From a virus, in IMG/VR virus record IMGVR_UViG_3300025401_000021, positions 17,601 to 81,600 of that record: 64,000 nucleotides of DNA. One strand, 5' to 3'. The notes beneath the pieces were generated by a model. That model was not told the DNA's origin. It saw only the letters and a program-made list of their open reading frames with translations, and did no database searches. The translations under genes were made by a program, and so were the position numbers. Positions 3,044 to 55,805 of the stretch are shown piece by piece (the stretch's first letter is position 1; each line of letters starts with the position of its first letter).

Positions 3044-3087
3044 CCTTAGTATAAATTTAAGGAAGTGCAAAGACAATCGCGAAACGG

Positions 3088-3657: not shown

Positions 3658-3658
3658 A

Positions 3659-4219: not shown

Positions 4220-4223
4220 GATG

Positions 4224-33339: not shown

Positions 33340-33342
33340 GGA

Positions 33343-33350
33343 GATAAATA
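33343..33350 (+). promoter_or_regulatory. Late promoter GATAAATA exactly 5 nt before gp25 ATG
   Basis: The sequence reads GATAAATA, ATACC, ATG (33356). A GAGGAG sequence overlaps the octamer 12 nt from the ATG, so read-through transcripts could still use a ribosome site, while transcripts from the promoter itself would be leaderless. Confidence 0.55.
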
Positions 33351-33355
33351 ATACC

Positions 33356-36800: not shown

Positions 36801-37242
36801 AAATTATCCAAAATTGCAAGATTATAAAATGCTATCTGATTCTGTAATACTCAATAGTGTTGTTTTTAAGCCACTGTTTGGACCAAAAGCCGAACCAGCC
36901 CTGCAGGGAACTATTAATGTAGTACCGGCGTCAAACACCAGTGCAAGCAACAGTGAAATAAGAAGTGCTGTATTAACGGCAATAAATAATTATTTTGATA
37001 TTAATAATTGGAATTTTGGAGCTACTTTCTATTTTTCAGAATTGAGCGCATATCTGCATGCACAGTGTGGTGATTTAATCAGTTCTGCGGTGTTAGTCTC
37101 AAATGATCCATCTAAGCCATTCGGATATCTATATGAAATAACTTGTTTACCATATGAAATTTTCACAAATGCTGCAATTGCTAATTCAATACAAGTTGTG
37201 CCCGCATTAAGCCCATCATTATTACAAATAGGATACCTATAA
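33856..37242 (+). CDS. 6: Baseplate wedge protein gp6-like, enlarged
   Basis: The N-terminal ~120 residues are a strong gp6 match: YETLRKSFIDYLQVYYPETF, IESSEFIALLDVMAFMGQGL and RRDSVIKLANLVNYVPKRNL. Around residue 400 the segment AREMLNDIK-like ARETLNDIKQRAPLRYYSQN, then RMVNGEDYSNFPYTLYSSII is also typical of gp6 (J-like) proteins. The C-terminus (IRSAVLTAINNYFDINNWNF, then ATFYFSELSAYL) resembles the ring-forming end. At 1128 residues it is far longer than T4 gp6 (660), the extra being beta-rich insertions in the middle. gp6 dimers with gp7 form the wedge and the inner baseplate ring. Its stop is immediately followed by the next ATG. Confidence 0.93.
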   Translation: MATSSRKSALFGANDWQSLYQTFNQADFKSYDYETLRKSFIDYLQVYYPETFNDYIESSEFIALLDVMAFMGQGLAFRSDLNARENFIDTAQRRDSVIKLANLVNYVPKRNLAGQGYLKVVSVSTTQNITDIDGMNLSNVPVLWNDPANPNWLNQMNTIFNATLIPVQSIGKPGNVKNILGVTTSEYAIQITPTSLPIIPFTSSVNGQNTNFELVSVTSLNEDYIYEIPPAPSGQFNMLYRNDMRGYGSPNTGFFFYFKQGTIQNFDFNLSQAISNQIVPIGSIENINNTDTWLYQFNNNGTRTPWIQVENVYANAHLQTESSKRLIFSVQSGTNDAVSYVFGDGVFSNIPVGNFRAYVRYGNALTYTIDPSEMSGISVAFTYIDNTGTPQTLTVGLALTTTVTNAQARETLNDIKQRAPLRYYSQNRMVNGEDYSNFPYTLYSSIIKSTAINRSSVGVSKNLDLLDPTGKYSSINSYGSDGALYQDDSNGFLSLVVSNTSDIITFFTNSLANVLRLNEANQYYIQNCTRYAINSSTNDGTVYWNASTVNAGSETGYLYNYINGVSAVNPLSIGVYSSTNVKYVTTGAICRFDSPPGYYFDHNARLVAGIPGSGDSTYIWATILNVIGDGSNNGIGNFANGAGPVTLSGYVPNGAILTSVIPVFGNIIPTTIIQECIIRMELKQNFTLVFNNSLLINQERWSISTYNDPNAFVQFTADANTNTYSITYKSLAYYFGSVSDTRFTFDTNSVIYDPYSGKILQDFINVLGINAGFNSSQPLGQNTPINVTGQPVQSDGYINDFQVRVSATDINNGNLILNPDFFNKITGYSNGSSNIGVYTFFETVIDPLNLTVKYIIPSSSVVYQYPTLSQIEVVKYQYPQGQLFYAYSENNFYKSYQDPTVLTQFYTMVPQVQYSMLPGRQGLAFQYRHNSNNTTRIDPVTTNIIDLYVVTQDYYTSYTNWIQDTTNTIPKPPLPTINELSQNYPKLQDYKMLSDSVILNSVVFKPLFGPKAEPALQGTINVVPASNTSASNSEIRSAVLTAINNYFDINNWNFGATFYFSELSAYLHAQCGDLISSAVLVSNDPSKPFGYLYEITCLPYEIFTNAAIANSIQVVPALSPSLLQIGYL

Positions 37243-40200
37243 ATGGCAAAAATTAGAACTCTTAATTTTCTACCAGAATATTTTCAAACACCGACAAATG
37301 CTCAATTTCTGGCGGCGACGTTAGATCAGATAGTTAATCCTCCTAGCTTAATGAAAATGCAAGGATATGTCGGTAGTAAATTTGGATACGGTATCAATGC
37401 CACGGATAATTATATTCCAGAAACCACAGCAACTCGTAGTAATTATCAATTAGCACCAGGTGTCGTCTTAACGGCCCCGAACACTTCCATAACGTCAACG
37501 TCCGGAACAGCAACCGACTTTATCACTTATCCCGGCATGATTGATGCTCTTAAATTGGCAGATGGTGTAACCGATGACAACAGTAAGTTGTTCACTAGTC
37601 AATTTTACTCATGGGATTCTTTTACTGATCTTGATAAACTTATAAATTATACTCAATATTATTGGTTACCTGAAGGCCCTCCTCCGGTGACAGTCGCTGC
37701 TGCAACAGTATACACCGTGCAAGACTACAATGTAACATATCTCCAAAATGGATATGAAATTTCTGCTGGAATTTCTAATGTAGGATCAATTAATCCACAG
37801 ATCACGTTGCTTAGAGGTGGAACATATACTTTTAAAGTCAATCAAGAATCAAATTTTTGGATTCAGGGACAACCGGGTGTAACGGGATATTCTCCCACAC
37901 AGCCAACACTTTATACGCGTAATGTTTATGGCGTTGAGAATAATGGAGCAAGTAATGGATATGTTATCTTTACTGTTCCACAGGCGAATGCTCAAGACCA
38001 GTACGTTTTTTCAAATAGCACTAGTGTTGACTTAGTAAGCAATCTGTCATTCAGCCAAGTTGAGGGACAGTTGGTTAAAAATTTTGCTGGAATTGACGGA
38101 GTAACTTCTCTAGAGGGACTTACAGTATTATTCTATAACCCATCAATCACTAATGAAATTGGCTATACATCAGAATATTATGATGAAACCCTTTATGATG
38201 ATAATACTGGGACTGATCCTAGATTGGTAGTGCCTCCTGTTACGCTTCAAATCGCATCATGTGATAACACATCCTTTACTTTAGCGACTGGCAGCACCAG
38301 TATGCTAACGGTTAATAATACAGTAACTTTCTCTACCTCAGGCAGTTTTCCCATTTTTGGTGGAGTAACTGCTGGTCAGGTATATTATGTGAACTCAATT
38401 TTAAATTCTACGCAGTTTACCATAACCGATAAGATTGGAGGCAATAACATCACGTTAACTCCAGCGGCTGGTCAGATGACATTGAATGTAAATCAGGGGC
38501 TATGGGAAGAAGGCTTCTACTCAAACGTACCCCAAAACTTCTATACTATAAATTATGTCGGTGATCCAAATAATCCATTGATTCGCTTATTCCCGACCTC
38601 TACGGTGCCATTGAACACTAACATTGTTCCAAAATATGGTAAAGAATATACTAACGTTCCTTTTTATCGGAGCGTTGATTCTAACAATATAAGTTATATT
38701 AATCCAGTACCATATGTCACCGCGCCACTCAGTACATTGTATTATCAGGACGGTACCAATCCAAATGATGTTGGTGTTATTAAAATTATTGATGCGAACT
38801 TAAATGCAACAATTGACGTAACTACAGATATTATTGGTCAAAAGACTTATACTTCTCCAAATGGAGTAGTATTTACTAACGGACTATTAGTTAATTTTAA
38901 TGGAAATGTTATTCCAACAAATTACCTGCAAGGACAGTACTATGTTCAAGGAGTTGGTACTGCTATTGAACTAATACCGTTTAATCAATTAGTATGTCCA
39001 GAAAGTTTTACTCAAGAAGAATATATTCCATTTGATTCAGATGGATTTGATGATCTTAATTATGACGGCGAATTAAATGTCCCCGCTCTTCAAGATTACA
39101 TCACGATTGCTCGTGGCTCAATCAGTAGAAATGCTTGGTCACGAAGCAATCGTTGGTTTCACACTGACGTAATTAGTGCGGCTGCAAAATACAATAATGA
39201 TTCAAATATCATTACCACTTATGCTAATTCTACCAATAGAGCAAAACGTCCTATCATTGAATTTTATCCAAATCTTAAATTATTTAATTCAGGGATCGTA
39301 GGAAAGTCGGCAGTTGACTACATTGACACCAGAGTGACTAATGCCTTTACTCAGGTTGCAAATACATATAACTATTATCCAGATATTCAGACGTATAGTT
39401 CATATAGTGCCACCATCGCTGCAGTAACTGCCGCAACGTCAACAACAATTACTGTTCCAGCTAGTGCTGTTACTGGATCATTAATTGATTTAATGTTTAT
39501 TGCAGACTCATCGGGACTGTTACCAGTAAATTCTCAAATCACTAACATTACTGGCACGACAACACTGACGTTGACAGTTACATGGGAATTCCCACAGAAT
39601 GTTTCTGCCGGATCAAATGTGTCAATTTTTGCATCAGAACTTGACGTAAGTAATTATGCATTATTCCCCAATGCTCGTGTTATTTTCGCAAATGACGCTG
39701 ATCCACAGGTCAGAAATAAAATTTACGTAGCAGAGTTTTCACAAATTTCCCAAGGTTCCAGACCCGTAATTACATTAACCGTTGCAGAAGATGGTGTCTG
39801 CTTAGCAGAAGAGCAAACAGTAATTTCGCGCGGCTACTATAACCATGGCTTAACTTATGTGTATAACGGTAACACATGGGATCAGGGACAACAAAAGATA
39901 TACGTAAATCAGCCACCACTTTTTGACATTTTTGATAAGAACGGAATTTCACTTAGTGATCCGACCATTTATCCGGGAACTTCTTTTGCAGGGTGTAAAC
40001 TTTTTGCATATGGAATTGGGTCCGGTTCCAATGATGCAATACTTGGATTCCCAGTAAGATACAGTAACATTAATAATATTGGTGACATCAGCTTTGATGT
40101 GTCATTGAACAATGACACATTTTCGTATATTAATGGCACTACCCCAATTACAGAAAAGGTAAATATTGGTTACGTATATAATTATACTGATATTGCCATG

Positions 40201-43200
40201 GAAGTAAAACAGCTAGGTTGGCAAACTGCAATCGCTGACAGTGTGCAGTATCAAGTATTTAATTACAATTTTGATCCATTGGTTAACACAACTACATCAT
40301 TTGTATGTGATGTTGCTGCTCTCAGTGAACCAACATCAGATAATCCCGGTTGGCCAACGATCAAAGTATACATAAATAACACATATGTAAACCCAAACAA
40401 CTATACTGTTAGTGTTGGTCCTACTACAACTACTATAACACTTGCAAATGTTCCGACTGCAAAAACTGTAATACAAATTCTGGTACTTAGTGACCAAGTA
40501 AGTAACTTGGCTTATTATGATATACCAATCAACTTAAATAATAATCCATTTAACGAAGATTTAGCCATCGTTAATATGGGTGATATTCGCGACCAATATC
40601 AAGACATATACATTAATGCCCCAAACACAACGGGTCCAATTTTTGGAGCCAACAATTACAGAGATTTAGGTAATCTTTTGCCATATGGAACGAAGATTAT
40701 TCAGAATTCTGCCTCTCTTGTCTTGCCGGGAGCATTCCTTCGCTCACCTAGATATAATATATTTGATGCTCTTCTGTATAACAGCCGTGAATACATTACA
40801 TATAAACAGTTGATTGTTAATACCGTTCAGAACACTGACTATGTACAGCGTTATACGCCTTCACAAATTTTAGATGTGGCATTGCAAAAAATCACTGCTG
40901 CAAAAACCCGCGACCAGTCATTCTTTTGGTCAGACATGCTGCCGTCTCAGACGCCATACGTGTCAAATACATACACATTTAATAATTTGTCAAGTAGTAC
41001 ATTTTATCCACTAAGTCAAATATATAATTTTGCAACTGCGAACTATAATGGAGTATTGGTTTATCATATTACCAATATTACTGGCGTTACCGTTGAAAAG
41101 CAATTGTTGTCTGGCGTCGATTACGTAATTAATACGGATTCACCATCATTAGAAGTGTTGATTAACCTACAGGCAGGGGATCAAATTATTATTAAAGAGT
41201 ATAATCAAACATATGGATCATATGCGCCAAATACTCCTACAAAACTGGGACTATACCCTGCATTTCAGCCTGCCATTGTATTGGACTCTAATTACACAAA
41301 TCCGACATGGTTCATAAAGGGACACGATGGATCATATACTAAACTTTATGGAACTTATGATCAGATTCTGGGTGTACTCACCGATTTCAGAGATCAGGCA
41401 TTATTTGAATTTGAAAACAGAGTGTTTAATAATTTGAAATTAAGCACCAAGATTCCAATTTCAAAATTTGAAATCGTACCCGGTTTCTTTAGAAATCCAA
41501 CATATAGCTATAAAGACTTCATGTCTATCTATAGTCCATTGTTCCTAAATTGGGTTGGACAGAATCGTTTAGATTACAAGACGCAATATTATAATAGCAG
41601 TAATACTCTAACATATAATTATACTAATTCAGCAAATAGACTGAATAATGCTCCTATTCAACAAGGATATTGGAGAGGAGTGTATGAATACTTTTACGAT
41701 ACAACAACTCCTGATCAAACTCCTTGGGAAATGCTCGGATTTGCCAATGAACCAACATGGTGGACAACGCGCTATGGTCCACTACCATATACAAGCGATA
41801 ATGGTATTCTTTGGGGTGATCTTGAAGCAGGTTATATATGGAACAATGGCAATCCGTATATCAATACGGAATTTGCCCGCCCCGGACTGTCAAAAATAAT
41901 TCCAGTTGACACGAATGGCACATTGCTTTCACCATTTCAATCAATTATTGGAAACTACAACCCAAGCACTTTCCAAAAAGACTGGGCTGTAGGAGATGAT
42001 GCTCCAACAGAATTTTCATATCGTCGCAGTTCAACTTATCCATTTGACCTTATGAAAATTTACGCTCTGACTCGTCCTGCTGAATTTTTCAACTTGGGAG
42101 TCGACTTGGACAACTACCAATATAATTCTGATTTTAACCAATATCTCGTTAATAACAGAAGTCACTTAGTACTATCCAATATTGAAATATATGGTAATGG
42201 TACTGCTAAAACAAGTTATATTAACTGGATTGTAGATTATCAGAAGCAGCAGGGAATTGATGCTACTGCTGACACTACTACGTTGCTGAATAATTTGGAT
42301 GTAAGACTGGTTTATCGTTTAGCCGGATTTAGTGATAAAAATTTACTACAGTTTTATGTAGAAAAAGGATCACCTAACAGTAACAATTCGTCATTATTAA
42401 TTCCAGACGAAAGTTACAAAATTCTACTGTACAATAATCAACCGTCAGACAGAATAATGTATAGTGGCGTCATAGTGCAGCAGAATGATGGGTACTGGAC
42501 AGTATATGGGAATTCACAACTTTATGCTTATTTTACCATTGCGAATCCATTGATAGGAAAAGGAACAACTAATCTTACAGTTCAAAATATTTCCGTAAAT
42601 TTATATAGAAATTATTCTGCCACTCAAACAGATATCGTCCCATATGGGACAAAATTCTACAATGCACAAGACCTTGCGCAATTTTTAATGTGTTATGGTA
42701 AATATCTTGAAACACAAGGAATGTTATTTAATGACATTCAGAATGGCATACAAGTAACTTGGACGCAAATGATCCAAGAGTTTCTTTATTGGGCACAGAC
42801 TGGATGGAATATTGGCAGCATTATTACATTGAATCCTGCAGCAGGCTTATTGGAAATTAGTCCACAGAATCTACTGGTTCAACCGTTGACCATTCAGGAC
42901 CAAAATTTCATCCTGAATCAAAATCTTTATCCTATTGAAAATAAAGATTTAGCAATATTTCGTAATAACAATTTGTTTAGTGTTAAAACACAAAATGTTG
43001 GCGATGCTATGGCATACGGACAATTTGATATCAGTAACTTTGAGCACGGTATTGTGTTTAATAATTTTACATTATTCAATGACGTAATCTATAACTTAGT
43101 GACCGGACTAAGACAAGACCGCATTTTCCTTCGTGGAGAAAAATCGGCTGAATGGAACGGGACAATGTATGCTGGTGGATTTATTCTCAATCAGGATAAT

Positions 43201-46200
43201 GTGCAAGAATGGGACCCAGCAGTGAAATATACGCGGGGTTCGGTAGTGCTTTATAAGAACAATTATTATCAGGCACAAGTTGTGGTAAATCCTGCAACTC
43301 AATTTAATCCATCTCAGTGGAAATTGACCAATTACGAAGCAATCCAAATTGGCATGCTTTCAAATCCATCAACGAGGGCATATGAAAGCACATTATTTTA
43401 TGATATCAATCAAGCAAACCTTCATGATGATGCCGACACACTTGGGTATTCACTGATTGGCTACCGACCAAGAGATTATTTGGCATTGCTTGATTTAACT
43501 AATGTTGCTCAAGTTCAGGTTTATCAGAATCTGATTATTAATAAAGGAACTTTAAATTCAGTAAGTGCATTTGAAGGTGCAAATTTACCAACTGGTGGCA
43601 TCAACTATTCAGTCAATGAAATATGGTCAATACTGTCCGGAAAATTTGGCGGAACTCTAAATAATAATTTTATTGATTTTTCCATCAATGCTCGTGACAT
43701 GACGGGAGACCCATCAATTGTAAGTTTAACAGACGGAACCATTAATACTAACGGCGCAATGCAAGAGATTCCATTGAATACGCTGTACAACTATGGTACT
43801 CCTATTTCCTCTCCTAATTTTTTGCCTGTAACCTCTAATCCTTCAGTGAATAACACATACCCAAATGCTGGGTTTGTAAACTTCAACGATATAACACTAG
43901 CATCTTACTATTATGCAGGTCTTCCCCGTGCAACCAATTCCAGTGGCGCTATAGTGCCAATTCAGAATTTTTATGTCGGACAATATGCATGGTTGGCAAA
44001 CTTTATGCAGGATTGGGGAGTTTATTCTTGGGAGGTTGTCGGACAGATATTACAGGTTCGTAATAATAACAATTCTACCGTAACATTAACTTTTAGTGCT
44101 CCTCACAATTTGGCTAGATTGCAGTCTTTGTCTATTGTGAATTTTGCATCTAACGTAAATGGTTATTATATTGTCATTGATGTTCCAAGTATATATGAAG
44201 CGGTAATTAATTTAAACCTTAATAATACTACACAAAATTCAATTCAGGGATTAGGTATCGGGTTGACATTTAAGTCACATCGTGTAACTAATCCATCCGA
44301 TATTGGAAATCTAAATCTCACTCAGGCAGACTTCATTGATAATTTGGTATGGGTAGATAACAATGTTGATGGTAATTGGGCGGTATTGCTTAAAGCTAAC
44401 AACTATGTTATGCAGAACACACTTCTTAATCAACCGGTATCAACCTCCACATTTGGTTCAGCAGTTGCCTACACTCCTGATATCGGATATCTTGTTGGCG
44501 ATGCTGCCGCAGGAAATGTCTATAGATATGTACTCAATTCATTAACTCAAGAATATGAAATTTACCAGACAATTACTAACGGAACATCATTTGGTTCTGA
44601 AATTTCGTATTCCGCATCAAACGATATCTATGTCGTATCTCAGCCCACAGGAACGCCTGAGGTATTCATTTATACACTTAATAATAGTCCATTAGGTGAC
44701 AACCTGATTCAATATCAGAGTGCCATCACAGCGCCGGGTGGGGTAACCAACTGGGGCAGTGCAGTAGCAATTTCTGGTGATGCAAACTGGATTTACATTT
44801 CCGATATTACAAACAACAACATCTACGTTTATCGTAGAGACAATATTCCTTTGCAGGCTGGATATTTTAATACAGGCCAGACTTATGTAATTACCGAACT
44901 TGGTTCAACAGATTTCACGGCAATTGGCGCTTCATATAATGCGGTCGGAATCACCTTTATTGCCACTGGAGCGGGCACTGGATCAGGTACCGCAACTCAA
45001 GTAACATATCGCTATGCAAGTGAAATCACTGGATCAACCTATGGGTATACTTCGGGGGATAATTTCAGCGCCTCTCTTTCAACCAATCAAGACGGTAGCA
45101 TATTGATTGCTGGAGCGCCACTCAAAAATTATAGCATGACTATTGAAGATTGGGGACAAGTGTCTGTATTGAATCGCACTGAACAGAATTTCCAAGTGCA
45201 ATCAGGTCAAGTTCCTAACCAGACATCAGTGTTCCCGTTGGCTTGGACTCCTGTCGCGACCGCTACTATTACTGCTAGTGCTACAAACTCATCCAATGAT
45301 ACAATCACATGCAGCACGAGCATGAGTGCATATGCCGTAAATACCCCAATAGCCTTCACTGGTGCGTCATTGGCTGGAACTGGTATCAATGCCGCGCGAG
45401 TATACTACATCGCTTCTATATCAGGTAACAATATTACGATAAAAACAAGCCGTATTACCACAACTGTAGTAGATTTAAATAGTGTGTCATTAACTGGCGT
45501 AAATGTTTATGTTCAAGTGACACCACTGTATGTATCTGTTAACGGCACGATTGTTGATGATAGTAACTATGCAATAATTGGCACCAACTTATATTATTAT
45601 AGTAATTTAAATGCTGGTGATATTTTAAATGTCAATGACAGTAAGTTTTTCTTAGCTCAGACATTTAATTCCAATTATCATGACCGAACAGGAATTCACT
45701 TTGGTTATGCTGTCGCAAATGCTAATAGCGGTTCTGATATTCTTGTTGGATCGCCATTTGAAATAAGTGACATTAATGGTCAAGAAGGAGCAGTTTATAA
45801 GTTTTCAAATGGTGGTGCCAAGTATGGTGTTGTCGTTGGGACTACTGGATGTAATATTGTTTCTTCAACAACAGTTCTGATCAACGGATATGCGGTAAAT
45901 CTTTCTTCTGGATGGACGGCAATTCAGGTTGCTAATGCAATTAATACCTCAGGTTTGATTAATATTCAGGCTGCTGCCACTAGTAATAATAATATTATTA
46001 TTCAGTGCATTGATAGTGCAATTGCGCCAGTTAATAAAAAGTTAGTAATCACTGCATTTAATACTACTGCATTTTCTGAATTGGGCTTCCAGCCATACAC
46101 AGAAACACAAGTACTACAGTGTCCATATGCTTCTGGTCCAACACAATTTGGTACTAGTATTAAAATTGACGCGTTCAATAATATGGTGGTTTCAGCACCA

Positions 46201-49200
46201 ACTGACACTCGTTACGAAGGCACGTTATTTGATTTTGTAGATGCTTTTAATTTAAGCAACGATACCGTATTTGATAATAATGCAACTCAATTTGTTGATT
46301 CATATCCAAATGCAGGCGCAGTCTATCTCTTCCAGTATCTTGCTGATTATAATGAAAGCTTGACAACACCGGGACAATATGTGTACGCTCAGAGTGTCAA
46401 TGACAATTCAACATCATATGGTAACTCGCCTATGTATGGTACTGCTCTTGATATTAACGATAACACAATTGTTATTGGAACTCCAAACTTCTTGACTGGT
46501 GTAAATAATGGTCAAGTTCTGGTATATACAAACCCAACAGGTGTTCCAGTCTGGTCCGTATATAGAAATTCTGCACCAGTGGTTGATATCAACTCCATTC
46601 AGAACTCACAACTTTACAGTGCAACAAGCAACCAGACCCTTGTAAACTTTGATTACATGGACCCATTACAGGGCAAGTTGCTTGGTGCAGCCCGCGAAAA
46701 TCTGGATTACGTTACAAGCGTTGACCCTGCATCATACAATAGCAATCTTGCTAATAACAATGGTAACATGTGGGGCACTGCACAAGTCGGTCAGCTTTGG
46801 TTGGATGTAACTAATATCCGATGGGTAAACTATCACCAAAATGATGTAACATACAATAGTAAATATTGGGGATCGGTATTTCCGGGTTCAGATGTCGCAG
46901 TATATACTTGGGTAGCAAGTTTCTCTCCGCCAAATAAATATAGTGGTTCAGGCAGCGTATATGATATCAATAAATATTGCGTTGCAAGCGTATTGAATTC
47001 TTCAAACGTTGTTTCTCCAGTTTATTATTTCTGGGTACGCAACACTAATATTATATTTGATCAGAGAAATAAATCATTATCAGATTCAATTGTATCCACA
47101 TATATTGCAAATCCGTCTGCGTCCGGTATTCCATTTGTTGCCCCATTGTCTCCAAACACGATTGGGCTTTATAATGCATCTACATTTTTTAACGGAAAAG
47201 ATTCAATATTTCATATCGGATATTCAACTGCAAAGGCACAAGACGTCTCACATGAAGAATTTGCACTTATTAATCAGGGCGATCCTAAAAGTTTCCTGAC
47301 CGGTTTTCCTCCTATAGTGAAAAGACAGACAACAGTCGCGACATTTGGAAATAATTTTAATTATACAGGAATTCCTACTGCATTGTATGAAAGGTTATTG
47401 TATTCATTTTCCGGATGTGATAAATCCGGAGCAGTTGTTCCTGACCCATTCTTGCCACTTGCGGTGCAGTCTGGCGTAATGTCCCATCCAAGACAAAGTT
47501 TCTTTTATGACAGATTTTTAGCACTTAACAACTATTTAACATATGCTAATAGTATTTTAATTCAATATCCCATCGCTGAACTAAGACCGGACTCTACGTT
47601 TTTGTTTGCCTCAGGTGAATATTACACTACGTCAGATTATTGGTCATATACAAATTGGTGGGCTGCTGGATACGACAATAATACCAAATCGCTTTATCAG
47701 GTTCCATATTATGCTGATCTAAAAACATTAAATGTATCTTCAGGAACTATTGTTACTGTATTACAAAGTAAAAATGGTAATACTGAAACTTATCGCTATG
47801 ATGGTAATGGTGTATGGACTCGTGTCGGACTTCAGAATGGTACCATTCAGTTTAATTCTACATTGTGGGATTATGCAAGCGGTCAGTTTGGATGGGATGG
47901 AAACTTCTTTGATACTGGCGTATATGACGACTATCCAAGTCAAGAGACATATTATATTATCCGCGCACTAAATGAACAAATCTTTACTGAAGACTTACTT
48001 CAGTATAGAAATTCAAGCCTAATTCTGATGTTTGAATACATTCAGAGTGAAACTGTAGAATCCCAAAATTTCTTGCCATGGTTAAATAAAACATCATTAC
48101 TTGATGTACAGCACACTCTTCGTGAACTTCTGCCATATGAAAATTATGTAACAGATAATTTTGATTTCTTGAGTGGCTATATTAATGAAACTAAACCATA
48201 TCATGTATTGATCAAAGATTTCTTATATGATTATAAAGGAAATGAAGATTATGTAGGAAATCTGACAGATTTTGACCTTCCTGCACAATATAATAGCACT
48301 TATCAAAAATTTATATCTCCCCAGATTGTGTATGGTTTACCAAGTAATGAATATGAATATGCTAATACTGACAGCATTTGGTCAACTGCACCATATACTC
48401 AATGGAAACAGAACTATGGAGTATCATTGACCGGTCAGCCAGACTACTTGATGACTACATTAACTTCATATATGGATTTAAAGTCAAATAGCATGATAGT
48501 TGAAAATGCCAATGGTTTTCCTATTAATGGTATTCTAACTATTGACAATGAACAGATTCAATATAGTGCGGTTGATACGTCACTGAATCTTATTGCTGGT
48601 CTAACAAGAGGATATAATGGAACTACAGTGTCCAATCATTTTCCGGGCGCAAAAATCACAATAAATCTTCCTCCGGTAGTTCTATTGAACGGTGGCGCAG
48701 GATATGTAAATACTCCAAAGGTAACGGCATATATTGATACAACCCTTTATCCGCCTCCAACAGTTCCCGCACAACTACAAGCGGTTATGGGCATTGATTC
48801 CGTATTAAATATTGATGTAATTAATCCGGGTGAGGGCTATGCCATCACACCAGAAATTGTAATTGATCCGTCAACAACAATTTCATTTACCAATACTGCA
48901 ATCAACTCTTTATTACATACTGTGGTTGTTTATGCACCTAACTTACAGACAGGTAACGTAATCCAATATAAGGCTGGCGCTGATAAGGTTGGTATCGGAC
49001 TGCTATCAGATAACGAATGGTATTATGTAAATGTGTTACAGACGAACCCAACCTCTGTTATTGCATTGTATTCTTCATATCGCGATGCTATAAATGATAA
49101 AAATAGAATTCAGATATATGATAAGGGAACAACCAACACTTTAAGTTTTAACTTAGGTGCACGGGCATATGCCATTTCAACATCTTATCCTATAAGAGAA

Positions 49201-52200
49201 AATAATATTACCGTTAAGTTTGACAGAACAACTTACAAATCTCAAGTAATTGATTGGAAAGCCGGTGAGTATTATGGATCATTCTTTGCTGGAAACTACT
49301 TGAATATTAACCAAGTATCAAGTTCTTCCATTCAATTAGAAAGCGTCAATCCATCTATTTCTGGAATCTTGGCATCGGCACAAGGCGCAGTATTTGAAAT
49401 TGTTAGCGTGGCTAATAATAGACAAACTGATTGGTCATCAACCATTAGATATGTTAGTGGCACAAGCAGTAGCAATAATGCTATCACCTTAATTCCACAA
49501 GACAATAATAACAACCCATCTAATCCTGAACCAAATGCCTCGGGAACGACAATTGGATTTTATGTCGGTATGCCGGTCCAGTTTAATGGTGCAGTGATTG
49601 GTGGATTAGTGGCCAATCAAGAATATTATGTTGCGCAAGTAATAAGTGAAACTGCATTTACAGTCTCCGCAACACAAAATGGTTCCGTAGTTTCTTTAAC
49701 TACGGCAACCATAGGCTCAATACCAATGACATGTCTGACTGCTCAGATTGTTGATACTGCGGTTCTTGATATAAATTATCCCGGAATATTGACTGTTACT
49801 AATACTACCTCAGGAACCAATTATCTGACTGTCCCAACTAGTGTTATTGGAACTGGTGGAACAAGCAGTTTCTATCAAAATCTTCCAGTATTTTTCAGTG
49901 ACGGTGTGATTGGAGGAGTCGTAGAAAATCAAGTTTATTATATTAGCACAGTAATTGATCAACAGACATTTACAATTTCTGCAAATGAAAACCCGCTGAC
50001 TACTACAATGACATCAACAGCATCTAGTACTAATGTCATCACTGTGGGAAGCACATTCCAATTTAATGTAAACGATCCGATTATCTTTACGCAAATGACT
50101 ATTTCGGGAAGCCCTGTAACCGCATTTGGTGGAATTGTGGCAGGTACTACTTACTATGTAAGTAATATTCTCAGTGGTACAACGATGCAGATTTCCCAGT
50201 ATATTAATGGTTCTATCCTTACGTTGTCAAATGCAACTGGAACAGCATTGATTACCGACCAAATTGATAGTGTTCAATTAACTACGGATACTGGTGCAAT
50301 GACCATGAACGTGTCGCTGCCAGTAAGTCCCGGACAAATAAATGGTCAAAAATTTACACTGTACGGAACATCTGGTCAATATCCGAATATTACTAGCGGT
50401 ATTGTTGGAAATCTGATTCAGAGAAACGTAAATGCAACCGTTGCTAACGGTAATAATATTGTTGCTATTGATTCTGTTTCTGGTGGGACTGATTTGTTCT
50501 ATGTTAATATGCCAATTCAGTTTGCAACTGCCATTGGTGGTCTTTCATCTAATACTACATATTATGTATTGACATATTCTGGTCAAACCGGGGTGAATAA
50601 TATTCAAGTAAATGTTACCGGAACATCATCTGACGGAAATCTACTAACGGGCGACGACACATCATATATGTATGTTGGCATGTCAATCGTATTTTCTGGA
50701 CAGGGACTTGGTGGCATCTTAACTGGCAAGCAGTATTTTGTATCTAGCATTGCCGATTCAACTCACTTTACTGTGTCTTTGACTAAAGGTGGTGCAACTC
50801 TCACACTAACTACAGACAATGGTACTATGACAGGGGTTGGTGATCCATATATTACTGTTTCTGCAACTGCGGGTGGCCCACCAGTAACTTTAAGCAACTC
50901 CACAACGGGTTCGGTGTTGAATCAATACATAACTTCAACTCCTACATTTGATATGTCGTATATTTTAGGTGGATACAGGGCGATAATCACTAGTGCTGGA
51001 TCAGGGTTTGCGCTAAACAATACTATTACAATCAGTGGAACGGTCCTTGGTGGAACAACGCCATTAAATGATGCAGTATTGCAGGTTAATAATATTAACT
51101 CTTCTGGAGGAATCACGAGCGTAATCTGTTCTGGAATCGTGCCATATCCATCACTGACATGCTACTTAAAAGTGATATCCCCAAATCAAGTTGAAGTATA
51201 TGCTAACCCATCAATGACTGTGCCGGTAAGTGGAATAAATCTTGGTTTTGGTGGATTTACGATTGATACTGTAAATTCGGTCACTGTATCAAATAATTCA
51301 TTGACAATTTCTGATACTTCTAAATTTAGTGTTAATGATGCAGTTGTGTTTACTGGTAATACTAGTACTGCAGTTTCTAATATCTCTCCATACTTGACAT
51401 ATTATATTTCTGCAATTCTTAACAGCACTCAAATTCAGGTAACAACAATTCCGGGTGGAAGCGCCATTACGGTTACATCAACTGCAAACACAAACTTCAC
51501 TATTGCCAAAGCTGGAAGTTTTGCATTCTTGCCTGAACCATTCTTCTTTAATCAATCAATTGTTAAATTTAACGGCAGAGTATACATCTGCGTTGTTTCA
51601 AATAATGACAAAAACTTTGTAATAGGTAAATGGCAAATTCTTGACTCTGATGATCCACGATTGAATGCAATGGATAGAGTAATTGGTTATTATGCCCCTA
51701 CAACAAATATGCCGGGTGTTGACTTAACTCAGTTATTTGATGGAGTCACGTATCCTAACTCAATTTACTATGGTAATGAATTCCAGCCATCACTACAGTA
51801 TCCATTGGATACGGTATTACAGGATCAGCCATTTAATAATACTGGACTGCCTGTACCAACATATGATGTTCAGGGTGCACCATTCCAGTATGGATACGGT
51901 CCCGAAGAATTGGTTCCGGGAGTAGTAACAGATAACGTTGCGATGACGGTCGCAACTCGTCCGGGAACCGATTGGAACATTGAACAATACGGTCACTCTG
52001 GGTATAATGTGGTGTCCAAGAATCTTGTCCCAACCTCCGGAACACAGGCGACATATAGTTTTGCTGGAATCGCTCATTTCCCTGCACAAATCTTTGTACA
52101 GACAGTGGGTGTAGCATCCGGACTAGGAACAACATTAAATAATGGCATTGATTATACGGTTAATTGGATTAATAAGACCTTTACTCTTACTAACCCGCTT

Positions 52201-55029
52201 CCATATCCTATTACTGAAACGATTCGCTTAGATGTATATGAAGTAGGAAATGGTAACCAATTGATTAAATCAAATAGCAATGTTGATCCTATTCGGGTTG
52301 ATCCGGTATCCGGATTTAATGAAATCTATGTAGACTGTAATTACAGTGCGCCAATCTATCAAGGAAGTGGTGTAATACAGCCGGGTACATATGATATTGA
52401 TACCATTGCAACTCAGACTATCAGTAATGGTAATGGAATTCTATGCAATAATTTATCAAATCTGTCTCTTAATTCACCAATAACATTTGAAGGGATAACT
52501 TTTGGTGGAATTAATCCAGACACTGTATATTATGTAAAGAGTATTAGTAAAGCAACCAATACAATAACCATATCCGCATCGTTCAATTCGGCTACTGGAC
52601 AGCCTGGTCCCATTTTAGATGTCACTGATGCAACAGGAACCATGTATGTAATTGTTCAGGCAGGAACGGGATTGACATGGACATCGCCAATAATTTATCA
52701 TAATGGTACGAAATTAATTGCTGGTGGCACAGATATCGTTACTAACACTACTACTGGAACTAACGCCATAACAACAAATTCAACTTCTAGAATGGTAGTC
52801 AATACGCCTATCACCTTCAGTGCAAATATGTTTGGACCTGACATTGTTCCTCTACAAAGATATTATGTGGCACAGATATTAAGTAGCACAACCTTTACTA
52901 TATCCGCAACTCCATCGGGTCCAGTATTATCGCTGACTACTCAACAAGGCGGCGCAACGTTCGTAACATATGATTATGCCTTTGGTATCCAACCAAATGG
53001 AACTTCTGCAATGATAATTTTCTCAACAGGAAATTATACAAATAATTCTGATTATCTGGTATATTCATTATTTGGTCAGACGTTACCAATCCAGTATGGA
53101 TATACAGTACCTGAAACTCAATTGTTTACTGGAACTGGTTCTCAGACGCAATTTGCTTTGTCTAACTATGTTGGCGCAGGCAATCCATCTAACGCAATTG
53201 TAGAAGTTAATGGACTACGAGCATCGCCGTCCACTTATACAATTGATCCAAGTGCCGACACAATTACATTTAATTCTGCGCCATCAAACGGGTCAGAAAT
53301 AGGAGTCACTACATTTAATGATACTAGAAGACAATATTTAAATACTCAAACAATTACTGCGACAAATTCAAATATTGTTAGTCAGATCGTAAGTATTTCA
53401 AATAATATTACTTCTCCATATGCGGTGACGGCATCTAACGCAACAACTTCTGGTACCAATAATATCACAGTTGTTAGTACTTCCGGATTCGTGGTTGGTC
53501 AACCAGTTACTTTCCAAGGAACTAGTTTTGGGGGAATAGCTACAGATGGAACTGTGTATTTTGTTCAAAGTATAGTGAGTTCTACCGCATTCAGAATTTC
53601 TGCAACTGCCGTTAATGGTGTACCGGGAAGCGTGTTTGCTGTGACTACTGCCACTGGTGAAATGCTAGTAACTGTTGGAGGAACACCAGCCGTTCGTGTA
53701 ACCACAAACGGTACCAACTACTTTACAGAAAATCAATTAATCAGAATTGATGGGACAGTAGGATCAAATCAACTTAATGGAAACGAATATTATGCAAGAA
53801 TAATTAATACCAATGTATTTGACTTGTATACTACTCCATTCAGTGCTGCATTAAATGCAGTCAATAACCCAGTAACACAAATATCATCCTACATAAGCGG
53901 GGGATACACTTGGGTAGCAGGTTCTTATTATCTAGTTGATACTACAACGTCATCAACTTCGGTTTCAAGTGGTGGAAACAGTAATGTAATCACCGTGGCG
54001 AGCACTGCTACTCTTGATTATGGAACTCCTGTAGTGTTTACTGCAACAGGTTCAGCAGATGGCACAAATATTCTTGGTGGATTGATTCAGGGAACAGTAT
54101 ATTACGTAAGCACAATTTATAGTCCAACTCAATTCAGTGTAGCATATTCACAGTATGGCACAAACGTAACCCTGTCTGATGCAACTGGTGTGGTTAACGT
54201 AACTCAGTGGGAACAGAATAATCCTGATCGTCTATGGATTACCATTAATGGGTATAGAGTCCCCTCATCAAGCCTCAGATTGTATCCATCAAATGAAGTT
54301 GGAATTCTGACGAGCATTACATCAGGATCAGCCGTAATTATGACTAATATGATTCCGACTGCAACGCCGAATGGTGAAATCTATATGAACTTCATTAATG
54401 AGTTAGGTCAGGCATCAGTATATAGAGCAAATAACCTATCAAGAACTTGGTTGACTCAGCCATTATATCAAGAAAGTGATTTGGTTTATATACAAGATTA
54501 CCGTGCAGTAACTAATAGTGTTACTCAGACATCAATAGTTCCGGCAGCAAGTGGCGGCGTTTATACTATAGGATTGACTGGTGTAGATAAAACACTCATT
54601 ACCGGTATTTCTGTATATAACAATACTACTAGAAAGTATATAAGTAGTTCTAACTATCAAATCACGATCATTGGTTTGGCACCAGAACTAGTAATTAATA
54701 CTGGCAGTTATATTAACGCGGGCAACTCACTGACAATAACTACATTGATAGGCAACACTATATATATTAATGGTGAACAAATTAAATTCAGTATTGTCAA
54801 TACTGTAACTAATACACTTGGTGGATTGCAGCGTGGGGCAAATGGCACAGGCGCACAGGTATATATTCCGGAATATGCTGATGTATTCAGCATATTGTCA
54901 GCAAACAAATTGCCAGATACTTACTATAACCAGACATGGAATTCATATGTATACAACCCAACACTTGGTGATCCATTGCAGATTAGTCAAACTATTCCTG
55001 CAACATTCTTAGAAGTGGATATAACTTAA
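37243..55029 (+). CDS. 7: Giant gp7-like baseplate wedge protein, 5928 aa
   Basis: One uninterrupted frame of 5928 codons follows gp6 with no gap, with AGGA about 10 nt before the ATG inside the gp6 end. The N-terminus (LNFLPEYFQTPTNAQFLAAT, then VGSKFGYGINATDNYIPE) is the gp7 start seen in T4-like phages; T4 gp7 has 1032 residues. Residues ~2400-3090 hold five or six FG-GAP-like blades (FGSAVAYTPD, WGSAVAISGD, HFGYAVANANSGSD, TQFGTSIKID, YGTALDINDN), suggesting a beta propeller. A small domain (TYVITELGSTDFTAIGAS, ~2548) interrupts it. At least 12 copies of a ~60-residue beta module (xPVxFxGxxxGGI...YYVxxI...FTIS) occur near 356, 2700, 4107-4700 and 5077-5600. The wedge role is supported by the N-terminus and gene order. 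The rest may form peripheral, host-contacting baseplate parts. Confidence 0.85.
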   Translation: MAKIRTLNFLPEYFQTPTNAQFLAATLDQIVNPPSLMKMQGYVGSKFGYGINATDNYIPETTATRSNYQLAPGVVLTAPNTSITSTSGTATDFITYPGMIDALKLADGVTDDNSKLFTSQFYSWDSFTDLDKLINYTQYYWLPEGPPPVTVAAATVYTVQDYNVTYLQNGYEISAGISNVGSINPQITLLRGGTYTFKVNQESNFWIQGQPGVTGYSPTQPTLYTRNVYGVENNGASNGYVIFTVPQANAQDQYVFSNSTSVDLVSNLSFSQVEGQLVKNFAGIDGVTSLEGLTVLFYNPSITNEIGYTSEYYDETLYDDNTGTDPRLVVPPVTLQIASCDNTSFTLATGSTSMLTVNNTVTFSTSGSFPIFGGVTAGQVYYVNSILNSTQFTITDKIGGNNITLTPAAGQMTLNVNQGLWEEGFYSNVPQNFYTINYVGDPNNPLIRLFPTSTVPLNTNIVPKYGKEYTNVPFYRSVDSNNISYINPVPYVTAPLSTLYYQDGTNPNDVGVIKIIDANLNATIDVTTDIIGQKTYTSPNGVVFTNGLLVNFNGNVIPTNYLQGQYYVQGVGTAIELIPFNQLVCPESFTQEEYIPFDSDGFDDLNYDGELNVPALQDYITIARGSISRNAWSRSNRWFHTDVISAAAKYNNDSNIITTYANSTNRAKRPIIEFYPNLKLFNSGIVGKSAVDYIDTRVTNAFTQVANTYNYYPDIQTYSSYSATIAAVTAATSTTITVPASAVTGSLIDLMFIADSSGLLPVNSQITNITGTTTLTLTVTWEFPQNVSAGSNVSIFASELDVSNYALFPNARVIFANDADPQVRNKIYVAEFSQISQGSRPVITLTVAEDGVCLAEEQTVISRGYYNHGLTYVYNGNTWDQGQQKIYVNQPPLFDIFDKNGISLSDPTIYPGTSFAGCKLFAYGIGSGSNDAILGFPVRYSNINNIGDISFDVSLNNDTFSYINGTTPITEKVNIGYVYNYTDIAMEVKQLGWQTAIADSVQYQVFNYNFDPLVNTTTSFVCDVAALSEPTSDNPGWPTIKVYINNTYVNPNNYTVSVGPTTTTITLANVPTAKTVIQILVLSDQVSNLAYYDIPINLNNNPFNEDLAIVNMGDIRDQYQDIYINAPNTTGPIFGANNYRDLGNLLPYGTKIIQNSASLVLPGAFLRSPRYNIFDALLYNSREYITYKQLIVNTVQNTDYVQRYTPSQILDVALQKITAAKTRDQSFFWSDMLPSQTPYVSNTYTFNNLSSSTFYPLSQIYNFATANYNGVLVYHITNITGVTVEKQLLSGVDYVINTDSPSLEVLINLQAGDQIIIKEYNQTYGSYAPNTPTKLGLYPAFQPAIVLDSNYTNPTWFIKGHDGSYTKLYGTYDQILGVLTDFRDQALFEFENRVFNNLKLSTKIPISKFEIVPGFFRNPTYSYKDFMSIYSPLFLNWVGQNRLDYKTQYYNSSNTLTYNYTNSANRLNNAPIQQGYWRGVYEYFYDTTTPDQTPWEMLGFANEPTWWTTRYGPLPYTSDNGILWGDLEAGYIWNNGNPYINTEFARPGLSKIIPVDTNGTLLSPFQSIIGNYNPSTFQKDWAVGDDAPTEFSYRRSSTYPFDLMKIYALTRPAEFFNLGVDLDNYQYNSDFNQYLVNNRSHLVLSNIEIYGNGTAKTSYINWIVDYQKQQGIDATADTTTLLNNLDVRLVYRLAGFSDKNLLQFYVEKGSPNSNNSSLLIPDESYKILLYNNQPSDRIMYSGVIVQQNDGYWTVYGNSQLYAYFTIANPLIGKGTTNLTVQNISVNLYRNYSATQTDIVPYGTKFYNAQDLAQFLMCYGKYLETQGMLFNDIQNGIQVTWTQMIQEFLYWAQTGWNIGSIITLNPAAGLLEISPQNLLVQPLTIQDQNFILNQNLYPIENKDLAIFRNNNLFSVKTQNVGDAMAYGQFDISNFEHGIVFNNFTLFNDVIYNLVTGLRQDRIFLRGEKSAEWNGTMYAGGFILNQDNVQEWDPAVKYTRGSVVLYKNNYYQAQVVVNPATQFNPSQWKLTNYEAIQIGMLSNPSTRAYESTLFYDINQANLHDDADTLGYSLIGYRPRDYLALLDLTNVAQVQVYQNLIINKGTLNSVSAFEGANLPTGGINYSVNEIWSILSGKFGGTLNNNFIDFSINARDMTGDPSIVSLTDGTINTNGAMQEIPLNTLYNYGTPISSPNFLPVTSNPSVNNTYPNAGFVNFNDITLASYYYAGLPRATNSSGAIVPIQNFYVGQYAWLANFMQDWGVYSWEVVGQILQVRNNNNSTVTLTFSAPHNLARLQSLSIVNFASNVNGYYIVIDVPSIYEAVINLNLNNTTQNSIQGLGIGLTFKSHRVTNPSDIGNLNLTQADFIDNLVWVDNNVDGNWAVLLKANNYVMQNTLLNQPVSTSTFGSAVAYTPDIGYLVGDAAAGNVYRYVLNSLTQEYEIYQTITNGTSFGSEISYSASNDIYVVSQPTGTPEVFIYTLNNSPLGDNLIQYQSAITAPGGVTNWGSAVAISGDANWIYISDITNNNIYVYRRDNIPLQAGYFNTGQTYVITELGSTDFTAIGASYNAVGITFIATGAGTGSGTATQVTYRYASEITGSTYGYTSGDNFSASLSTNQDGSILIAGAPLKNYSMTIEDWGQVSVLNRTEQNFQVQSGQVPNQTSVFPLAWTPVATATITASATNSSNDTITCSTSMSAYAVNTPIAFTGASLAGTGINAARVYYIASISGNNITIKTSRITTTVVDLNSVSLTGVNVYVQVTPLYVSVNGTIVDDSNYAIIGTNLYYYSNLNAGDILNVNDSKFFLAQTFNSNYHDRTGIHFGYAVANANSGSDILVGSPFEISDINGQEGAVYKFSNGGAKYGVVVGTTGCNIVSSTTVLINGYAVNLSSGWTAIQVANAINTSGLINIQAAATSNNNIIIQCIDSAIAPVNKKLVITAFNTTAFSELGFQPYTETQVLQCPYASGPTQFGTSIKIDAFNNMVVSAPTDTRYEGTLFDFVDAFNLSNDTVFDNNATQFVDSYPNAGAVYLFQYLADYNESLTTPGQYVYAQSVNDNSTSYGNSPMYGTALDINDNTIVIGTPNFLTGVNNGQVLVYTNPTGVPVWSVYRNSAPVVDINSIQNSQLYSATSNQTLVNFDYMDPLQGKLLGAARENLDYVTSVDPASYNSNLANNNGNMWGTAQVGQLWLDVTNIRWVNYHQNDVTYNSKYWGSVFPGSDVAVYTWVASFSPPNKYSGSGSVYDINKYCVASVLNSSNVVSPVYYFWVRNTNIIFDQRNKSLSDSIVSTYIANPSASGIPFVAPLSPNTIGLYNASTFFNGKDSIFHIGYSTAKAQDVSHEEFALINQGDPKSFLTGFPPIVKRQTTVATFGNNFNYTGIPTALYERLLYSFSGCDKSGAVVPDPFLPLAVQSGVMSHPRQSFFYDRFLALNNYLTYANSILIQYPIAELRPDSTFLFASGEYYTTSDYWSYTNWWAAGYDNNTKSLYQVPYYADLKTLNVSSGTIVTVLQSKNGNTETYRYDGNGVWTRVGLQNGTIQFNSTLWDYASGQFGWDGNFFDTGVYDDYPSQETYYIIRALNEQIFTEDLLQYRNSSLILMFEYIQSETVESQNFLPWLNKTSLLDVQHTLRELLPYENYVTDNFDFLSGYINETKPYHVLIKDFLYDYKGNEDYVGNLTDFDLPAQYNSTYQKFISPQIVYGLPSNEYEYANTDSIWSTAPYTQWKQNYGVSLTGQPDYLMTTLTSYMDLKSNSMIVENANGFPINGILTIDNEQIQYSAVDTSLNLIAGLTRGYNGTTVSNHFPGAKITINLPPVVLLNGGAGYVNTPKVTAYIDTTLYPPPTVPAQLQAVMGIDSVLNIDVINPGEGYAITPEIVIDPSTTISFTNTAINSLLHTVVVYAPNLQTGNVIQYKAGADKVGIGLLSDNEWYYVNVLQTNPTSVIALYSSYRDAINDKNRIQIYDKGTTNTLSFNLGARAYAISTSYPIRENNITVKFDRTTYKSQVIDWKAGEYYGSFFAGNYLNINQVSSSSIQLESVNPSISGILASAQGAVFEIVSVANNRQTDWSSTIRYVSGTSSSNNAITLIPQDNNNNPSNPEPNASGTTIGFYVGMPVQFNGAVIGGLVANQEYYVAQVISETAFTVSATQNGSVVSLTTATIGSIPMTCLTAQIVDTAVLDINYPGILTVTNTTSGTNYLTVPTSVIGTGGTSSFYQNLPVFFSDGVIGGVVENQVYYISTVIDQQTFTISANENPLTTTMTSTASSTNVITVGSTFQFNVNDPIIFTQMTISGSPVTAFGGIVAGTTYYVSNILSGTTMQISQYINGSILTLSNATGTALITDQIDSVQLTTDTGAMTMNVSLPVSPGQINGQKFTLYGTSGQYPNITSGIVGNLIQRNVNATVANGNNIVAIDSVSGGTDLFYVNMPIQFATAIGGLSSNTTYYVLTYSGQTGVNNIQVNVTGTSSDGNLLTGDDTSYMYVGMSIVFSGQGLGGILTGKQYFVSSIADSTHFTVSLTKGGATLTLTTDNGTMTGVGDPYITVSATAGGPPVTLSNSTTGSVLNQYITSTPTFDMSYILGGYRAIITSAGSGFALNNTITISGTVLGGTTPLNDAVLQVNNINSSGGITSVICSGIVPYPSLTCYLKVISPNQVEVYANPSMTVPVSGINLGFGGFTIDTVNSVTVSNNSLTISDTSKFSVNDAVVFTGNTSTAVSNISPYLTYYISAILNSTQIQVTTIPGGSAITVTSTANTNFTIAKAGSFAFLPEPFFFNQSIVKFNGRVYICVVSNNDKNFVIGKWQILDSDDPRLNAMDRVIGYYAPTTNMPGVDLTQLFDGVTYPNSIYYGNEFQPSLQYPLDTVLQDQPFNNTGLPVPTYDVQGAPFQYGYGPEELVPGVVTDNVAMTVATRPGTDWNIEQYGHSGYNVVSKNLVPTSGTQATYSFAGIAHFPAQIFVQTVGVASGLGTTLNNGIDYTVNWINKTFTLTNPLPYPITETIRLDVYEVGNGNQLIKSNSNVDPIRVDPVSGFNEIYVDCNYSAPIYQGSGVIQPGTYDIDTIATQTISNGNGILCNNLSNLSLNSPITFEGITFGGINPDTVYYVKSISKATNTITISASFNSATGQPGPILDVTDATGTMYVIVQAGTGLTWTSPIIYHNGTKLIAGGTDIVTNTTTGTNAITTNSTSRMVVNTPITFSANMFGPDIVPLQRYYVAQILSSTTFTISATPSGPVLSLTTQQGGATFVTYDYAFGIQPNGTSAMIIFSTGNYTNNSDYLVYSLFGQTLPIQYGYTVPETQLFTGTGSQTQFALSNYVGAGNPSNAIVEVNGLRASPSTYTIDPSADTITFNSAPSNGSEIGVTTFNDTRRQYLNTQTITATNSNIVSQIVSISNNITSPYAVTASNATTSGTNNITVVSTSGFVVGQPVTFQGTSFGGIATDGTVYFVQSIVSSTAFRISATAVNGVPGSVFAVTTATGEMLVTVGGTPAVRVTTNGTNYFTENQLIRIDGTVGSNQLNGNEYYARIINTNVFDLYTTPFSAALNAVNNPVTQISSYISGGYTWVAGSYYLVDTTTSSTSVSSGGNSNVITVASTATLDYGTPVVFTATGSADGTNILGGLIQGTVYYVSTIYSPTQFSVAYSQYGTNVTLSDATGVVNVTQWEQNNPDRLWITINGYRVPSSSLRLYPSNEVGILTSITSGSAVIMTNMIPTATPNGEIYMNFINELGQASVYRANNLSRTWLTQPLYQESDLVYIQDYRAVTNSVTQTSIVPAASGGVYTIGLTGVDKTLITGISVYNNTTRKYISSSNYQITIIGLAPELVINTGSYINAGNSLTITTLIGNTIYINGEQIKFSIVNTVTNTLGGLQRGANGTGAQVYIPEYADVFSILSANKLPDTYYNQTWNSYVYNPTLGDPLQISQTIPATFLEVDIT

Positions 55030-55185
55030 ATGATAAATAGTCAGATGAAAAACACAGAAAATAATCCTAATAATCAAAAATCAGGAAAACCAAACGAGTT
55101 TGGGGGAATTTATTTTTCCTCCAGCGTAAAAATCTTTGATCCTAACTCTAACGAAGTTATATTGCAAAAAAGAGGGGATGACTAA
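55030..55185 (+). CDS. Small protein echoing the next gene's N-terminus, 51 aa
   Basis: The ORF starts at ATG directly after the gp7 stop, or at an internal ATG (55045) that lies exactly 5 nt after a GATAAATA element. It encodes a polar N-terminus and ends SSSVKIFDPNSNEVILQKRG, close to FIKIFDPNSGEVFVDKKN near the start of the next gene. Its stop overlaps the next start (TAATG). It may be a duplicated edge of that gene or a small baseplate peptide. Tight coupling and the shared motif argue that it is real. Confidence 0.65.
   Translation: MINSQMKNTENNPNNQKSGKPNEFGGIYFSSSVKIFDPNSNEVILQKRGDD
55032..55039 (+). promoter_or_regulatory. Late promoter GATAAATA, 5 nt before an internal ATG
   Basis: The sequence reads GATAAATA, GTCAG, ATG (55045). 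The octamer overlaps the first codons of the small ORF. It would serve the fibre-side genes after the very long gp7 gene. Confidence 0.5.
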
Positions 55186-55805
55186 TGTCAGTTGTCAACC
55201 TACAATATAAAGTTGAAGGCTTTATTAAAATCTTTGATCCCAACTCCGGTGAAGTTTTTGTAGATAAAAAAAATGCAATCAATTACGAGACGATGAGCCT
55301 TGCTCTTGCAAATTCACTCAGTGATCGCGGTTATGGTCAGATTTACCAAATGGCATTTGGTAATGGCGCGGCAGCAGTAGATGAAACTGGGGTCATCACT
55401 TATCTTCCACCAAATACAACTGGGTTAAATGCTGGCCTGTATAATCAGACTTATGCTAAAATCGTAGATGATACTAGTGTTTTTAATCTAGACCCAACTA
55501 GAAATAAGATGACTGTATATCATACTACTGGCAATTTGTATACAGATATTCTGGTACAGTGCCTACTTGATTATGGTGAACCATCCGGACAGCAGGCGTT
55601 TGACAATAGCACCGCATTAGTGTCAGAATATACATTTGATGAATTGGGTCTACTGGCAAATTATGGAACTGACAGTAACGGAAATCCTATAACTCAATTG
55701 TTAACTCACGTAGTATTTCACCCAGTACAAAAGTCATTGAATAGGCAAATTCAGATAGATTATACTGTCAGAATTCAGGCTCTTACCAACTTGGTGACAA
55801 TTTAA
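55185..55805 (+). CDS. Conserved baseplate-region structural protein, 206 aa
   Basis: The protein includes FIKIFDPNSGEVFVDKKNAI followed by NYETMSLALANSLSDRGYGQ, and a C-terminal FDELGLLANYG and LTHVVFHPVQKSLNRQIQID, then YTVRI. Proteins of this type occur between gp7 and the fibre genes in environmental T4-like phages and are probably wedge or fibre-adaptor components, possibly the gp8 equivalent. It is translationally coupled to the small upstream gene. No enzymatic motif is seen. The exact gp number is uncertain. Confidence 0.65.
   Translation: MSVVNLQYKVEGFIKIFDPNSGEVFVDKKNAINYETMSLALANSLSDRGYGQIYQMAFGNGAAAVDETGVITYLPPNTTGLNAGLYNQTYAKIVDDTSVFNLDPTRNKMTVYHTTGNLYTDILVQCLLDYGEPSGQQAFDNSTALVSEYTFDELGLLANYGTDSNGNPITQLLTHVVFHPVQKSLNRQIQIDYTVRIQALTNLVTI

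Follow-up and report, generated by a model that had tools for sequence, protein, structure and literature searches.

A 5,928-residue gp7-position protein from a T4-like jumbo phage, enlarged relative to its cultured phrog_10938 homologues

The locus and its open reading frame

The window, by which we mean the whole stretch of 64,000 nucleotides that was analyzed, comes from an IMG/VR virus record of 81.6 kb and carries a series of genes matching baseplate proteins on the plus strand. These include a small baseplate wedge subunit (26143..26478, +; phrog_7145, E 2.2e-21), a gp5-like hub/spike protein of 1,374 aa (29215..33339, +; phrog_13211, Pfam Phage_base_V), a gp25-like wedge/sheath initiator (33260..33805, +; phrog_261, phrog_43), whose true start is probably further downstream, and a gp6-like baseplate wedge protein of 1,128 aa (33856..37242, +; phrog_10646, E 6.6e-242; phrog_219, E 2.5e-24). 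A hub-like ORF measures 909 aa, and the sizes which an earlier note on this DNA had given for gp6, hub and spike agree with the ORFs. The gene at the gp7 position encodes 5,928 aa (37243..55029, +) and is referred to as the giant in the following. Its ATG directly abuts the stop codon of gp6, and T4-like portal and capsid genes are located near it. Downstream lies a conserved neighbor of 206 aa (55185..55805, +; phrog_11259); PA5oct, SCTP-2, Phosso and Vibrio 2.275.O likewise have a gene of some 200 codons after their homologue of the giant. A phrog_17744 search of the large relatives, carried out without a positive control, gave no match.

Several other features of the window were recorded. 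Two overlapping tandem paralogues on the minus strand (3088-3699 and 3659-4219) are 52% identical over 184-188 residues, have no Pfam match and both carry 'ITELLTESEILDEISRP' or a close variant near their start. Six short ORFs, mostly overlapping end to start, lie in a row at 60693-62631 (+); the first three end in 'LLRWS' or 'TLRWS', the remaining ones in the similar 'LLRVL', 'NLKYL' and 'TLKYS', which suggests a tandem family of tiny proteins with a common C-terminal motif. Two fibre-like genes (55821-59135 and 59561-60625, both +) have their N-terminal 70 or so residues in common ('GTINxTSTSLGLPGRxYxGYGQ'), probably a shared attachment domain. Perfect in-frame tandem repeats were found in a structural ORF (24868-25078, 90 bp x2.3), in a tail-fibre ORF with a Gp53-like_C end (58083-58216, 54 bp x2.5) and in the tape-measure ORF (15434-15500, 21 bp x3.2).

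The giant's frame runs from the ATG at 37243 to the stop at 55029 without an internal stop, so that the 17.8-kb intact frame reported in the earlier note, and its share of more than a quarter of the window (27.8%), were confirmed. From the sequence a mass of 646 kDa and a pI of 4.4 are predicted. Since the gene was found on a single metagenome contig and its length is unusual, we considered whether an assembly error might have joined several genes, one of the outcomes which the earlier note had named as refuting it. We regard this as practically negligible. A separate record, G002, contains the giant gene letter for letter (296/296 60-mers), long homologues exist in cultured phages, and in each of 40 IMG/VR records searched whole the region around the core match forms one frame without internal stop, with the same architecture. 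In 38 of them the C-terminal 199 aa are in the same frame as the core, and in the other two (G015 and G039) the giant's frame is cut by the contig ends. Complete giants among these records measure 5,845-7,757 aa. The 40 records include reassemblies or repeats of one phage (G010-G013 share ORF length and scores) and therefore represent fewer than 40 independent phages. An IMG/VR scan with 700 aa of the core yielded 238 related stretches, a scan with a divergent alignment at least 582.

We also compared the gene with that of its nearest relative, L119, at about 72% identity. In each of the ten 600-codon blocks up to the end of the gene pN was 0.14-0.23 and pS 0.68-0.82, nonsynonymous differences per site being 3-6x rarer than synonymous ones. 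The giant is thus under purifying selection along its full length, and the low pN relative to pS in every block indicates that translation and conservation extend over the entire chain. The expectation that the extra residues must matter is supported by this selection.

Family membership and the question of gp7 identity

In a PHROG search the giant matched phrog_10938, 'virion structural protein', in two halves (E 6.5e-188 and 2.9e-46), and tblastn of aa 1001-2200 found homologues in 57 cultured-phage records. These are jumbo myoviruses of the RaK2, 121Q, GAP32, PA5oct, Atu_ph07, Phosso and SCTP-2 kinds. Judged by its sequence the giant belongs to this known, little-studied family. Seven cultured homologues were measured and range from 3,326 to 4,555 aa, among them RaK2 gp465 (3,326 aa), GAP32_230 (3,341), SCTP-2 gp140 (3,807), PA5oct gp355 (3,857), Atu_ph07 gp180 (4,449) and the Phosso protein (4,555). 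BLAST aligned the giant to the seven in ordered blocks at aa 1-160, ~510-700, 812-2224 and 3104-3725. As in the window, the homologue directly follows gp6 in PA5oct, RaK2, GAP32, Atu_ph07, Phosso, Vibrio 2.275.O and CBB; the exception is SCTP-2, where it is coded apart from gp6. Two members of the family have been detected in virions: PA5oct gp355 carries a note of ESI-MS/MS detection, and CBB_236, the CBB homologue, was found by mass spectrometry with 21 peptides (PMC5259590).

With 57 cultured-phage records and hundreds of IMG/VR contigs, the assumption that phages rarely keep such a gene is not supported. A giant gene after gp6 is the rule in RaK2/PA5oct-type phages, so its presence here is normal and not new, and it is the expansion that is unusual. 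The window giant shares with the cultured members the blocks over aa 1-2250 and 3100-3725, but it is 1,400-2,600 aa longer than the named ones. In our search of the literature on large phage structural proteins and on FCCH domains in phage tails we found no paper on such an expansion.

The gene order gp25-gp6-giant equals the gp25-gp6-gp7 order of T4. We therefore compared the giant with gp7 profiles of T4, phiM7, Cr30 and a cyanophage by hhalign, which gave a probability of 0-3% anywhere, N-terminus included. Among the known gp7s (for the cyanophage, its gp7 domain) the same procedure gave 78-100% across pairs, and T4 gp7 as positive control found those of phiM7 (94.5%), Cr30 (89.8%) and the cyanophage (78.3%). 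The sole better match of the giant (47-48%) pairs aa 3730-3786 with a cyanophage giant and is located in a generic beta-module. An 'LP' near the N-terminus and a KGT motif at aa 2101-2103 (43543..43551, +), suggestive of the gp7 landmark 'FYxxKGT', align in register and in the same order as in gp7, but the scores of these alignments did not exceed those of reversed-sequence controls. Deeper profiles, and the N-terminus and KGT segments taken alone, likewise gave nothing above reversed controls, and homology to T4 gp7 by sequence was discarded. In AlphaFold2 models we looked for the helix-turn-helix by which gp7 enters the (gp6)2-gp7 core bundle; aa 1-146 have a pLDDT below 50, the KGT region has 25-45, and no T4 gp7 structure is among the fold matches listed for the two models, which does not show that such a fold is missing.

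The earlier note had described the N-terminal part as resembling gp7. Gene order fits, but the profiles, whose controls worked, lend this no support; by sequence the likeness is to the RaK2/PA5oct-type virion protein. We therefore use the name gp7-position protein and consider gp7 identity likely on the basis of gene order and the two landmark motifs. The gp7s of T4, XM1, Cr30 and phiM7 occupy the same place in the gene order with similar LP and KGT landmarks, but the gene after gp6 encodes only 767 aa in Cr30 (gp248), 1,006 in phiM7 (gp92) and 1,032 in T4; compared with this set the giant is 6-25x longer, shows no detectable profile similarity and is not followed by a recognizable gp8 gene. 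Two cyanophage giants, S-RSM4 151 (3,515 aa) and S-SSM6a 275 (3,007 aa), also lie directly after gp6. Their N-terminal domain matches T4 gp7 (hhalign 78-87%), whereas that of the window family does not, and S-RSM4 retains a separate gene 8. Both gp7-matching cyanophage proteins (L145 19823-30370 and L146 19846-28869) are annotated only as structural proteins.

A chain of this size might also have arisen by fusion and stand in for several wedge proteins of T4, gp7 together with gp8 and perhaps gp10, so that it would make up most of a wedge. Consistent with this, the 206-aa product of the next gene is not a recognizable gp8, and a search of five records (82-361 kb) for the gp8 family phrog_438, which lacked a positive control in these phages, came out empty. 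Within the giant, however, there is no gp8 profile match, and we consider such a fusion improbable. In the relative G041 the giant does match phrog_438, but the match lies in a generic glycine-rich 'GSGY..P' repeat and was rejected.

A conserved scaffold with added modules

All cultured homologues have in common the N-terminus of aa 1-160 (37243..37722, +), starting 'xIRTLNFLPEIFQT', a candidate wedge anchor. It is followed in the AlphaFold2 model by a cupredoxin-like beta-sandwich at aa ~147-545 (37681..38877, +; pLDDT mostly 70-89), for which rusticyanin was matched with Z 9.7 over 95 residues at 2.1 Å rmsd, and which is interrupted by a first module described below. Laccase and endosialidase ranked top in Foldseek for model 1 and were rejected, with 19-27 Å rmsd over long spans; for this reason we relied solely on local matches in the VIA alignment, the cupredoxin-like and the FCCH-like one. 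The family core at aa 812-2224 (39676..43914, +) is the part best conserved across the cultured jumbo phages (mean column identity 74%, alignment A2). Its helix-rich portion, aa 1382-1684 (41386..42294, +), is modeled mostly with confidence, and a fold search with this model found no PDB relative. A second block shared with the cultured homologues spans aa 3104-3725 (46552..48417, +), and the conserved C-terminus, aa 5730-5928 (54430..55026, +), has the clade ending 'GDPLQISxTxxAxFL'. PDB profile searches with aa 1-1180, 1200-2260 and 3380-4540 found no relative; two hits with E 0.13 and 0.3 were taken as chance.

Within the core, aa 1984-2030 (43192..43332, +) were assigned by fold match to a CBM5/12-like carbohydrate-binding domain. 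A baseplate chain of the phage Milano receptor-binding complex matched with Z 8.0 and 0.9 Å rmsd over 45 residues, and chitinase CBMs matched the same residues at Z 5-6.7. Pfam CBM_5_12 lists no match for the window copy; the relative L201 scores above the cut-off (33.8 vs 26.2), PA5oct, Atu_ph07 and G027 below it. In PA5oct and Atu_ph07 the weaker match falls at a position corresponding to aa 1791 and thus at another site than in the window giant, which indicates that this module occupies the same scaffold at two places. An FG-GAP beta-propeller region at aa ~2411-3110 (44473..46572, +) is an insertion relative to RaK2 and GAP32, which have only ~160 aa at this place and thus no room for it. 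Pfam FG-GAP_2 scored 27.8 bits in the giant (cut-off 23), and 17 of 18 homologues have matches.

Most frequent is a module of about 90 residues, with the consensus 'T..NxIT...TS.F.VN.PI.F.G..FGGI..G..YYV..I..ST.FTIS.T..G', which is present in 13 copies. Module 1 (aa 329-420; 38227..38502, +; HMM i-E 5e-22) interrupts the beta-sandwich and module 2 (aa 2671-2759; 45253..45519, +) lies in the propeller region. The others form an array of six (aa 4064-4759; 49432..51519, +), a group of two (aa 5049-5246; 52387..52980, +) and a group of three (aa 5389-5659; 53407..54219, +). The consensus matched no family in Pfam or PDB by sequence. Module 1, the one of the 13 copies that was modeled, resembles in fold the ubiquitin E1 FCCH domain (Z 8.8 and 2.2 Å rmsd over 76 residues), with about 20 E1 entries at Z 8.2-8.8 over the same residues. 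We therefore call the modules FCCH-like, a likeness of fold which implies no E1 chemistry; unlike the E1 domain, this one recurs as 13 copies within a structural protein of a phage. The 13-copy set, like the displaced CBM5/12 site, separates the window giant from the cultured members.

From these comparisons the extra length consists of modules added to a conserved scaffold (aa 1-160, ~812-2250 and 3100-3730). In a tree of the core the 20 proteins of at least 5,426 aa form one clade (support 100/100). This clade sits within a set of proteins of 4,174-5,316 aa, and the cultured phages (3,326-4,555 aa) branch outside both. FCCH-like copies number 10-20 in the large clade, 0-3 in the sister group and 0-1 in the cultured homologues, the module HMM having been seeded from the window protein, so that the counts for the other sets may miss diverged modules. 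Among members of the large clade, length correlates with module number (r=0.90, n=19, without kinship correction). The longest frame of this search, 7,757 codons with 20 FCCH-like modules, belongs to the relative L137/L138 (record G027). The lineage thus seems to have enlarged the giant by plugging in stick-like and sugar-binding modules.

This graded insertion, as opposed to a joining of separate genes, also bears on the idea that the giant is a polyprotein which a protease cuts into several virion proteins. In jumbo phages, head proteins are known to be processed by a prohead protease (PMC10052503), and a length beyond that of usual structural proteins would suit such a precursor. On the other side, no protease-like domain was found in the giant, and the CBB homologue appears as one entry in the virion mass spectrometry table (PMC5259590), which would still be compatible with cuts. 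We rate this idea as slightly less probable even than the fusion of wedge proteins.

Possible role at the baseplate

The reading we favor, and hold to be somewhat more probable than its alternatives together, is that of a single-chain virion protein of ~646 kDa which takes the place of gp7 in a contractile tail of the T4 type, acting as a wedge scaffold with long adhesive arms. It builds on the single frame, its conservation and selection, the make-up of the modules, their expansion in one clade and the presence of homologues in virions. The scaffold would dock with gp6 in each of the six wedges, as gp7 does, giving six copies. The inserted modules would project outwards as jointed adhesive arms, and these, we infer, may hold fibres and/or touch glycans on the host surface before the tail contracts. 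By analogy, a precedent for a gp7 carrying receptor-binding parts may be seen in XM1 gp17, a T4 gp7 orthologue of 242 aa, which holds tail spikes via a loop and its C-terminal part (PMC10457771). Against our reading count the missing gp7 profile similarity, the lack of a T4 gp7 structure among the listed fold matches (the KGT region being poorly modeled), the separate location of the SCTP-2 homologue and the filing of phrog_10938 under 'head and packaging'.

The absent profile similarity and the predominance of adhesion-type beta-modules would also fit a fibre, whisker or arm protein that is attached to the baseplate or tail, gp7's job being done by another protein. RaK2 has branched, spike-studded fibres (PMC3622015) and CBB has tail whiskers (PMC5259590). 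However, the giant directly follows gp6 in nearly all relatives, its most conserved part is the helix-rich and beta core and not an adhesin, and in the relatives examined we saw no small gene of its own resembling gp7 in the interval from gp6 to the genes that follow. We consider a pure attachment of this kind unlikely, and return to the wedge scaffold.

According to the earlier note the extra residues most likely form a large baseplate periphery. A role at the edge is plausible, given the peripheral modules of adhesion type. The baseplate of T4 measures some 50 nm or more. Those of RaK2 and CBB, both with homologues of ~3,330 aa, measure 35 nm (PMC3622015) and 36 nm (PMC5259590), respectively, and relatives of this type have a gp6 of ~1,150 aa. 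The enlarged genes, from which the earlier note had suggested a baseplate far exceeding that of T4, therefore do not imply one; gene size does not simply translate into baseplate size.

A further-reaching version, which we put forward tentatively and with clearly less confidence than the wedge scaffold as such, takes the gp7-site protein of this uncultured clade for a mega-scaffold: one chain per wedge would account for the greater part of the baseplate's periphery and act as a multivalent adhesin that is built in and able to evolve. If true, it would have arisen as FCCH-like, propeller and sugar-binding modules were inserted and duplicated again and again, reaching 7,757 aa in one relative. 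A protein that usually goes by the annotation 'hypothetical' or 'virion structural' is now indicated to contain integrin-type propeller and sugar-binding domains. The graded size series of 3.3k-4.6k, 4.2-5.3k and 5.8-7.8k aa lets the role of the added modules be tested, and it indicates that, compared with cultured relatives, a core tail component can be enlarged by a third to twofold while its scaffold remains constant.
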